From Gammaproteobacteria bacterium (GTDB taxonomy: Bacteria > Pseudomonadota > Gammaproteobacteria > Steroidobacterales > UBA11654): 37,397 nt of DNA. Below the pieces are notes generated by a model. That model made no database searches. It saw nothing but the letters and a program-made list of their open reading frames with translations, and had not been told where the DNA came from. A program made the position numbers and the translations under genes. Below are positions 8,717 to 11,440 of the stretch, piece after piece. Within the stretch, counting starts at the first letter, position 1, and each line of letters opens with the position of its first letter. Location: NCBI GenBank assembly GCA_002717445.1, contig PBDY01000008.1, positions 101,572 through 138,968 on the forward strand, written 5' to 3'.

Positions 8717-9185
8717 TATAGGCTTCGGCTAAAGCTTGATGCACCGTTGGGTGCACAAAGTCTGAAACGTCTCCTCCTTCTTGTGCAATTTGCCTGATCA
8801 ACGAAGATGATAAAAATGCATTCTGATCACCGCTGCTAAGAAAAACCGTTTCGATATCATCTGCAAGTTTTTTATTCATACTGGCCAACTCAAATTCATA
8901 TTGACCATCTGCCGGGGATCGAAGCCCTCTTACTATAACCCTTGCATCAATCTTTTTTGCAAAATCAATCGTTAACCCATCGTAAGGCTGAACTTCAATG
9001 TTGCTGAATGCATTCAAAACGTCATTAACCATTGCCAGTCTTTTTTCATGCTCAAATAAAGGCTGCTTCTCTTCGCTCACAGCGACCCCAACAACCAAGA
9101 TTTGGAAAATCGTTGAGGCTCTTCTGATAATTTCAAAGTGGCCATTTGTGATTGGGTCAAAGGTTCCGGGGTAAAGTGCAATCAT
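8709..9185 (-). CDS. coaD: phosphopantetheine adenylyltransferase
   Basis: A 158-residue nucleotidyltransferase that adenylates 4'-phosphopantetheine to dephospho-CoA, the fourth step of CoA synthesis. The N-terminal MIALYPGTFDPITNGHFEI contains the TxGH signature of the superfamily (Thr, Gly and His at about residues 13-17). The phosphate-binding RGLRSPADGQYEFE stretch and the SSSLIRQIA motif near residue 127 are conserved. It overlaps rsmD by 4 nt in ATGA, the usual rsmD-coaD pair, so the two are co-translated. Confidence 0.97.
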   Translation of the reverse strand: MIALYPGTFDPITNGHFEIIRRASTIFQILVVGVAVSEEKQPLFEHEKRLAMVNDVLNAFSNIEVQPYDGLTIDFAKKIDARVIVRGLRSPADGQYEFELASMNKKLADDIETVFLSSGDQNAFLSSSLIRQIAQEGGDVSDFVHPTVHQALAEAYKK

Positions 9186-9763
9186 CTTTCGCTATTTGGG
9201 GTTTTTAATTTAAGAATTCCATAATATACATTTCCAGCCTTTGAATCCTTAACTAATTGATATTTTGAAGACACCAGTTGATCCAAACATTTGTTGGACT
9301 CTAGATAAATCAGGCTGGCATCATTGGCCCAATTATTCTCATAGAGTTTCTCAATGATTTCATTTAATTCAAACTTTCCATAAGGCGGATCTATAAAAAT
9401 TATGTCGAAACAACCCTCCGTGTTCTCCTCCTGAATCATCTTGATTGAGTCTCTGCAGTAAATTTTTATGGCATCAATTTTGTACTGCGTAAGAGAGTCC
9501 TTTAAGGCGGCACAAGCTTTTTTTGATGAGTCAACATAAAGCGCTGAGCTAGAGCCTCTGGAGAAGCATTCAACACTAAGGCAACCACTCCCTCCGAATA
9601 GCTCTAAAATCTTGGTTCCTTCAATATTGGGTGACAACCAATTAAACAAAGTCTCGCGAACACGGTCCGGTGTCGGCTTTACCTGCTCATCCTCTACGGA
9701 AAGCATAATCCCTTTATGCTTGCCCCCAATTATTCTGACCTTTCTGTTTTTTTGTGCTGACAT
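9182..9763 (-). CDS. rsmD: 16S rRNA (guanine(966)-N(2))-methyltransferase
   Basis: A 193-residue SAM-dependent methyltransferase that modifies G966 of 16S rRNA during 30S assembly. Visible motifs are VRIIGGKHKG, the family signature TPDRVRETLFNWL, the SAM-binding LELFGGSGCLSVE at about residues 55-67, and the catalytic DPPYGK. It is followed by coaD. The ftsY-ftsE-ftsX genes that often sit next to it in gammaproteobacteria are not here; instead the divergent neighbour is rpoH itself. Confidence 0.95.
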   Translation of the reverse strand: MSAQKNRKVRIIGGKHKGIMLSVEDEQVKPTPDRVRETLFNWLSPNIEGTKILELFGGSGCLSVECFSRGSSSALYVDSSKKACAALKDSLTQYKIDAIKIYCRDSIKMIQEENTEGCFDIIFIDPPYGKFELNEIIEKLYENNWANDASLIYLESNKCLDQLVSSKYQLVKDSKAGNVYYGILKLKTPNSER

Positions 9764-9867
9764 ATGTTTTTGCGCAAATTTAACTCAAATATTACCAAAA
9801 ATACCCTTTTTAAGAAGTATATAATATATTGATATATATAGTTTTTTTAAAATAAATAAGTATATTT

Positions 9868-9894
9868 TTAGCACTCAAGTATTGAGAGTGCTAA
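9868..9894 (+). promoter_or_regulatory. CIRCE element (HrcA operator) upstream of rpoH
   Basis: TTAGCACTC at 9868-9876 and GAGTGCTAA at 9886-9894 are separated by exactly 9 nt. Both arms match the CIRCE consensus perfectly. It lies 36 nt ahead of the rpoH start, where an operator would block transcription or its early elongation. CIRCE is bound by the heat-labile repressor HrcA, usually at groESL and dnaK. The promoter itself is not clear in the AT-rich stretch 9820-9867; TTGATA at 9829-9834 is one possible -35. Confidence 0.92.
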
Positions 9895-9930
9895 TATTTA
9901 CTCCCTCGAAGTTATTTTCGGGTTAATTTT

Positions 9931-10788
9931 ATGAACGATGCAGTAATCAAAAATGAAATACAACTTCTCGGTCCAATTGGAAGCCTAGAGGCGTACATCA
10001 GTATTGTCAATCAAGCTCCCGTGCTTACCAAAGAGGAGGAATATGCGCTTGCTGTAAGGTTTAAAAAGAACAATGACCTTGATGCGGCCAGACAGCTGAT
10101 CCTCTCTCAGCTGAGATTTGTCGTGCATATAGCGAGAACATACAACGGTTACGGCCTGCCTCTCGCTGACATTATTCAAGAAGGGAATGTTGGTCTGATG
10201 AAGGCGGTTAAAAAGTTTGATCCTGAAAAAGGAGTAAGGCTCGTTACCTATGCCGTGCATTGGATTAGGGCAGAGATTCATGAATTTGTATTCGACAACT
10301 GGAAAATCGTCAAGATCGCAACAACTAAAGCTCAAAGAAAGCTCTTCTTTAAGTTGAGAGGCTCAAAAAAGAAAATAGGCTGGCTTACAAATGATGAGAA
10401 AAACTTAATTGCTGATGACTTAGGTGTGAGAGCAAAGGATGTTGAAACAATGGAGGAGCGTTTAGCCTCCAAAGATGTTTTGTTTGATCGGCCAGAAGAT
10501 GAAGGCAGCACCCATGTCAGCCCTGCTGGTTTCTTGCCGGCTCCAAACAGCGACCCCTCAAAACTCGTGGAAGAAGAAAACTGGCTCGAGAGCAACATAG
10601 AGTTAATGTCTGAAGCAATGGAAAAGCTTGATAACAGAAGTAAAGAGATATTGCGTCTCAGGTGGTTAGCCGATGAAAAAGTAACGCTTAAAGAGCTCGC
10701 AAAGAAATTCAATGTTTCTCTGGAGAGAATAAGACAAATCGAAGAACAGGCCATCCTTGATCTCCGTGAACAACTTCTCAGCTCGTAG
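9931..10788 (+). CDS. rpoH: RNA polymerase sigma-32 factor (heat-shock sigma)
   Basis: A 285-residue sigma factor that directs RNA polymerase to heat-shock promoters (chaperones and proteases). Region 2 is clear (RFVVHIARTYNGYGLPLADIIQEG, then KFDPEKGVRLVTYAVHWIRAEI), with the RpoH box QRKLFFKLR near residue 135 that separates sigma-32 from sigma-70. Region 4 ends the protein with VTLKELAKKFNVSLERIRQIEEQA, an HTH for the -35 box. The length is normal. No strong ribosome-binding site precedes the ATG. The perfect CIRCE element upstream predicts repression by HrcA. The end overlaps trmB. Confidence 0.96.
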   Translation: MNDAVIKNEIQLLGPIGSLEAYISIVNQAPVLTKEEEYALAVRFKKNNDLDAARQLILSQLRFVVHIARTYNGYGLPLADIIQEGNVGLMKAVKKFDPEKGVRLVTYAVHWIRAEIHEFVFDNWKIVKIATTKAQRKLFFKLRGSKKKIGWLTNDEKNLIADDLGVRAKDVETMEERLASKDVLFDRPEDEGSTHVSPAGFLPAPNSDPSKLVEEENWLESNIELMSEAMEKLDNRSKEILRLRWLADEKVTLKELAKKFNVSLERIRQIEEQAILDLREQLLSS

Positions 10789-11440
10789 GCCTGTCAGAAG
10801 CTTTGTTCGGCGACAAGGGAGGATTACCCCCTCTCAACAATCTGCTTTGGAAGAGCTTCTTCCCAAATACGGTATTCAATATTCGGCAGGCTTAGGCTTG
10901 CTGCCAATTAATTTACTTGGAAATCCTGACCTTCCCCTCACCCTCGATATTGGTTTTGGTGATGGAGAGCTGTTGGCATCAATGGCAAGTGGCAATACCC
11001 ATAGAAACTTCATTGGCATAGAAGTTTATACTGCTGGGATAGGGCACTGTCTGAAATTAATAGATCAAAAAAATATTCGTAACTTAAGGCTTGTGAGTGG
11101 CGATGCGGTTGAGGTAATGGAGTTTGGCATAGAGGGCGCCTCTATAAATGAGATCAACTTATTCTTTCCAGATCCTTGGCCAAAAAAAAGACACCGCAAG
11201 AGACGAATCATCAATGCTGCATTTATTGAGCTTATGTCAGAAAAACTAATGCCTGGCGGATTGGTTAACATCTCCACTGACTGGGAGAATTATGCAGAGC
11301 AAATTGAAGATTTGTTTGCAAAGAGAAAATATTTTGTAAAAAAATCATCCCTTGCAAGATGTGAAAGTACAAAATTTGAGAAAAGGGGTCTTTCCCTCGG
11401 CCATGAGATTTTTGACTTTACTTATGAATTGCTGGCCTAG
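10757..11440 (+). CDS. trmB: tRNA (guanine-N(7)-)-methyltransferase
   Basis: A SAM-dependent enzyme that makes m7G46 in tRNA. RSFVRRQGRITPSQQSALE near the N-terminus, the SAM loop LDIGFGDGELLASMA, and LFFPDPWPKKRHRKRRI near residue 136 match the E. coli protein. The C-terminal STKFEKRGLSLGHEIFD is equally conserved. The start is uncertain: TTG at 10757 gives 227 residues and GTG at 10766 gives 224. Both lie inside the end of rpoH (32 or 23 nt overlap), and neither has a strong ribosome-binding site, so translation probably depends on ribosomes finishing rpoH. The stop lies in a CTAG palindrome shared with the gltD stop. Confidence 0.95.
   Translation: MISVNNFSARRPVRSFVRRQGRITPSQQSALEELLPKYGIQYSAGLGLLPINLLGNPDLPLTLDIGFGDGELLASMASGNTHRNFIGIEVYTAGIGHCLKLIDQKNIRNLRLVSGDAVEVMEFGIEGASINEINLFFPDPWPKKRHRKRRIINAAFIELMSEKLMPGGLVNISTDWENYAEQIEDLFAKRKYFVKKSSLARCESTKFEKRGLSLGHEIFDFTYELLA

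Follow-up and report, generated by a model that had tools for sequence, protein, structure and literature searches.

A perfect CIRCE element, the operator of the HrcA repressor, lies directly upstream of rpoH in the window, that is, the whole 37,397-nt stretch of marine bacterial DNA analysed here, and it very probably acts as a functional HrcA operator that represses this gene. The site reads TTAGCACTC-AAGTATTGA-GAGTGCTAA, matching the HrcA/CIRCE operator pattern TTAGCACTC-N9-GAGTGCTAA with 0 mismatches, and it is separated from the rpoH ATG (9931) by about 36-37 nt. When the window was scanned with up to 3 mismatches allowed, this was the sole match, and 0 of 100 dinucleotide shuffles of the window contained one. 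It was again the sole match in the entire genome from which the window comes (1.5 Mb, 84% complete). The initial annotation had described a perfect CIRCE directly upstream of rpoH, and this description is borne out by the mismatch count, the shuffles and the curated RpoH model. Its statement that both arms and spacer match the consensus exactly holds for the two 9-nt arms, the spacer agreeing in length only; to our knowledge, no consensus spacer sequence exists for CIRCE. The features of the region are collected in Table 1.

Table 1. Features around the rpoH control region of the window
Feature	Position	Strand	Basis or remark
rsmD, divergent neighbour	9182..9763	-	TIGR00095, 142 bits (cut-off 117.5)
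AT-rich block TnTAATnTATTGATnTATAnnG	9820..9841	+	profile of the window's family; about -48..-27 relative to CIRCE
CIRCE (HrcA operator)	9868..9894	+	consensus arms perfect, spacer 9 nt
Possible weak -35, TTAGCA	9868..9873	+	4/6, spacer 18, for the extended -10; sequence only, speculative
Putative extended -10, TGCTAATAT	9889..9897	+	right CIRCE arm and 3 flanking bases
Small hairpin CTCGAA..TTCGGG	9905..9922	+	terminator-like call; between CIRCE and ATG
rpoH, heat-shock sigma factor sigma32, 285 aa	9931..10788	+	TIGR02392; Pfam sigma-70 regions 1.2, 2, 4
trmB, downstream	10757..11440	+	TIGR00091, 148.6 bits (cut-off 112.65)

The product of rpoH is an RpoH by its score against TIGR02392 (371 bits, cut-off 323) and carries the RpoH box QRKLFFKLR. 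Its control region is contained in the 167 nt between rsmD and rpoH, and on the other side the longest ORF of trmB overlaps the end of rpoH. The AT-rich block in the intergenic region is conserved across the window's genus and may be part of either divergent promoter; on the minus strand it resembles an IHF site. The small hairpin between CIRCE and the ATG is followed by a T-rich run and is restricted to a subclade of the genus, with similar sequence in four genomes (G002, G003, G005 and G008). A role of CIRCE itself as a terminator was rejected, this hairpin being the only terminator-like call in the region. The idea that the rpoH leader holds an RNA thermometer was rejected as well, its fold z-score of -1.0 giving no support.

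The repressor was sought in the same genome, where its absence would have spoken against the proposal, and hrcA was found there (G000:C20:26155) in the gene order hrcA-grpE-dnaK. It encodes 345 aa scoring 209.7 bits against a cut-off of 22.2, and the protein matches the HrcA structure 1STZ (1.8e-20). The E. coli control genome was negative in the HrcA search, in agreement with the earlier remark that E. coli has no HrcA. As for the additional CIRCE sites that had been suggested at chaperone genes, congeners do have a second CIRCE at groESL, where it sits at groES, while the window's genome holds the rpoH site only. groES was sought in this MAG and not found, probably owing to an assembly gap, which, if it is one, would explain the single CIRCE. 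In relatives, the groES CIRCE follows CTTGAAA-N-CCCCTATTA, a promoter of the sigma32 type, and it fits the consensus with 1 mismatch against 0 for the rpoH CIRCE of the same genomes.

At the hrcA-grpE-dnaK locus, no CIRCE was found in most genomes of the order. Upstream of hrcA in family f2 (L181, L187 and L194), TTGACACTC-N9-GATTGCTAG is a 4-mismatch relic of CIRCE that can also be read as a -35/-10 pair; better copies upstream of hrcA in f8 and f16 hint at a lost autoregulation. We looked in 30 genomes for a sigma32 promoter upstream of hrcA that could complete a feedback loop; most scores did not exceed those of shuffles and the window's genus offered no convincing candidate, and for this reason we do not claim such a loop. 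One genome (G112:C39:148762-152840) has hrcA and rpoH on one strand, with hrcA about 2.6 kb upstream, an arrangement that recurred in none of the other genomes compared for gene position.

We observed the rpoH CIRCE in every genome of the window's family (f1) whose rpoH region was read, with 0 mismatches in all nine profiled regions. Among the nine genus genomes, including the window, the arms are invariant while 9 of the 9 spacer columns vary. In the order, 37 of the 39 genomes with an rpoH above the curated cut-off have the site, a count made up of 36 upstream regions showing it and of G010. The two exceptions, G022 and G035, are both of the sampled f13 genomes: they lack hrcA, keep rpoH and groES, and contain no CIRCE anywhere at up to 3 mismatches. 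Their rpoH genes (L130 and L129) have a sigma32-like CTTGAAA-N-CCCC upstream of TGGTAAAAT, which suggests a possible autoregulation of rpoH in a family with no RpoE over the cut-off. In two other genomes of the order (G013 and G028), CIRCE is present at rpoH and no hrcA was detected. The close relatives returned by the genome scan were marine MAGs and single cells only, and the SAR86 rpoH loci returned by the same scan showed no CIRCE at up to 4 mismatches.

For the class Gammaproteobacteria, we sampled one genome from each of 143 families, looked for RpoH, HrcA and RpoE in them and read the regions upstream of rpoH, the site being counted as present when a CIRCE with at most 3 mismatches lay within 450 nt upstream of rpoH. 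The rpoH CIRCE was found in 86 of 92 genomes with hrcA, six thus lacking it, versus 10 of 38 without detected hrcA (p=1.6e-14, a value that ignores shared ancestry, although, with a single genome taken from each family, shared descent alone is an unlikely, yet possible, cause). Where hrcA was undetected, the site was mostly absent too, in 28 of these 38 class genomes and in 2 of 2 from f13. The ten genomes with the site and no detected hrcA include some incomplete ones and several estimated to be 97-100% complete; many genomes are fragmented, so that a missing hrcA can be an assembly gap. Conservation of the site at the rpoH of relatives, whose loss had been named as a refutation, therefore holds throughout the genus and the order, and in the class for most of the families sampled. 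In L295 (G049), an additional CIRCE half-site, GAGTGCTAA, immediately precedes the rpoH CIRCE, and G070 has two rpoH genes (L270 and L343) with CIRCE at one only.

In most relatives, CIRCE overlaps a putative sigmaE-type rpoH promoter. In the 27 genomes of the order outside f1, GGAAC stands at -16..-12 of CIRCE (63-93% per base) and the CIRCE spacer starts with TAA (74/93/78%), resulting in the layout GGAACYY-N16-TCTAA of the sigmaE type, whose -10 (TCTNA) consists of the last two bases of the left CIRCE arm and the first three of the spacer. Across the class, GAAC was found at -16..-14 of CIRCE in 60 of 94 sites, with 0.85 expected, and the spacer starts with TNA. Its presence follows that of RpoE, both in the class (60/80 with RpoE, 1/14 without, p=2e-6) and in the order (24/25 with, 1/11 without, p=5e-7). 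In G108, the lone class exception, the RpoE search gave 225 bits, just below the cut-off, with a match that lacks the first 38 profile positions.

On the right side of the operator, most relatives have a corresponding putative extended -10, TGCTAAAAT, completed by AAT to the right of CIRCE; in the window, TGCTAATAT at this place would put the transcript start about 7 nt downstream. This AAT flank is found at 85/78/100% in the 27 relatives and is not shared by the groES copies of CIRCE. TGNTANAAT is kept in 12 of 37 rpoH regions without CIRCE, where 0.53 would be expected. In G115, a genome without hrcA, GAAC, a near-intact left arm (TTGGCACTC) and TGCTAAAAT stand in their original register, the remaining right arm having decayed. 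Together with G022 and G035, these cases indicate that the promoter elements can outlive the operator.

The window's own lineage appears to have lost the sigmaE-type promoter that most of the class has in addition. GGAAC is absent upstream of rpoH in the window and in all nine f1 regions profiled, and the sigmaE-dependent arrangement (GGAACTT, about 16 nt, TCNNA) was not found in the window. RpoE exceeded the cut-off in no f1 genome, the best match in the window's genome, which is 84% complete, reaching 48 bits against a cut-off of 236. The remaining candidate promoter for rpoH would be the weaker extended -10, of which the hexamer TAATAT matches at 4/6. A sigma70 scan of the window called no strong promoter on the rpoH strand, nor did it call the possible -35 of Table 1.

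Could the palindrome be something other than an HrcA operator? Its main role might be that of a hairpin in the leader RNA of rpoH, through stability or attenuation. Transcribed from a start further upstream, a perfect inverted repeat of 9 bp would fold, and in Bacillus CIRCE does affect mRNA stability. In most relatives, however, the left arm contains the sigmaE -10, so that the transcript would begin in the spacer and could not fold into the hairpin; moreover, the arms hold one exact sequence, as for a protein site, and the site disappears together with hrcA, so that we regard this reading as very unlikely. That another regulator sharing the CIRCE sequence reads the palindrome seems to us scarcely credible: the ten class genomes with the site and no detected hrcA, some of them nearly complete by estimate, would fit it, but across families site and hrcA are strongly associated (p~1e-14), and groES, the classical target of HrcA, bears the palindrome too in the same genomes.

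A relic at rpoH, with HrcA acting on groESL only and rpoH controlled post-transcriptionally, would be in keeping with E. coli, where RpoH is controlled mainly by translation and stability, with the reduced genome of the window and its lack of an RpoE over the cut-off, and with the genomes that retain the site while hrcA is undetected. Yet a relic would hardly keep invariant arms in the genus while the spacer columns vary, nor fit the consensus better than the groES copy does, and it should not usually be gone where hrcA is gone; we consider it improbable. Repression of rpoH by HrcA, as the initial annotation had put it in the form of an HrcA-sigma32 cascade, is well supported on comparative grounds, since hrcA is present, the site is conserved, and the two co-occur and co-disappear.

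From these sequence comparisons we infer binding, repression, release by heat, promoter use and the identity of the sigma factor at rpoH, and the circuit would run as follows. At normal temperature, HrcA, kept active by GroEL, would bind CIRCE and cover the rpoH promoter. HrcA would lose its activity on heating or in the presence of misfolded protein, directly or via titration of GroEL, and its release would allow transcription of rpoH, sigma32 then switching on its regulon. In relatives, the second CIRCE right after the sigma32 promoter of groESL would make this operon a target of both HrcA and sigma32, hence a feed-forward loop, and GroEL, once restored, would bring HrcA back into action and end rpoH transcription. 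In most of the class, HrcA would cover a sigmaE-type promoter and form a two-signal gate that requires envelope stress and loss of HrcA, whereas in the window's family, where RpoE and the sigmaE -35 are gone, it would cover a probable housekeeping promoter of the extended -10 type. As E. coli RpoH control is mainly post-transcriptional, the transcriptional gating may be modest. In Campylobacter, GroE enhances HrcA binding and heated HrcA loses DNA binding (PMC8533110).

CIRCE at rpoH is not unprecedented: in the part of PMC545781 consulted, a predicted CIRCE upstream of rpoH is listed at -51 for Geobacter sulfurreducens (Table 8). As in the window, where the 27-nt site begins 63 nt before the ATG, this is a perfect CIRCE near the rpoH start codon in a genome with hrcA and groESL; it differs in coming from one deltaproteobacterium, with CIRCE also at hrcA-grpE-dnaK-dnaJ, and neither promoter overlap nor clade-wide conservation was found described in that part of the paper. 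In a partial search of the literature treating HrcA, CIRCE and rpoH together, CIRCE at rpoH was found in PMC545781 only. The class-wide extent, the co-loss with HrcA and the composite operator/promoter were not found in the literature searched and are apparently new. Part of this may be known, since Permina & Gelfand 2003, outside the reach of the search, is said by its title to concern gammaproteobacterial HrcA regulons.

In most accounts of the heat-shock response, repression by HrcA and activation by sigma32 figure as alternatives. An HrcA site over the rpoH promoter suggests that the two control systems may form one circuit. With the HrcA/CIRCE systems of Bacillus, Campylobacter, Chlamydia and rhizobia, the window shares the repressor family, the operator and the release expected on heating or on titration of GroEL; the classical targets are chaperone operons (groESL, dnaK), while here the heat-shock sigma factor would itself be a target. 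The rpoH gene of E. coli has a sigmaE-dependent promoter, P3. Relatives of the window share with it and with Vibrio the sigmaE-type -35 GGAACTT and the TC-N-N-A -10 and, probably, the driving of rpoH by RpoE under heat; in Vibrio alginolyticus, RpoE binds the rpoH promoter, with canonical motifs given as GGAACTT/TCAAA (PMC4890791). E. coli differs in having no HrcA or CIRCE, whereas the hrcA-containing relatives have the operator fused with the -10, and in the window's family the -35 is gone and no RpoE passes the cut-off. We lean, with some reserve, towards an HrcA-sigma32 hierarchy as the ancestral gammaproteobacterial heat-shock design, with the HrcA operator and the sigmaE/sigma70 promoter of rpoH in one element, and E. 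coli-type control as the state reached once hrcA had been lost and the operator had gone with it while the promoter elements stayed; the partial decay of the site in G115 points this way. The bases shared by operator and promoter would constrain the normally free CIRCE spacer at its first positions and offer a simple route to lose the repressor yet keep the promoter. Should HrcA occupy rpoH in most of the families retaining hrcA, a transcriptional gate on sigma32, set by a repressor that senses GroEL, would be a general feature, and E. coli, the gammaproteobacterium studied best, would be the derived case.
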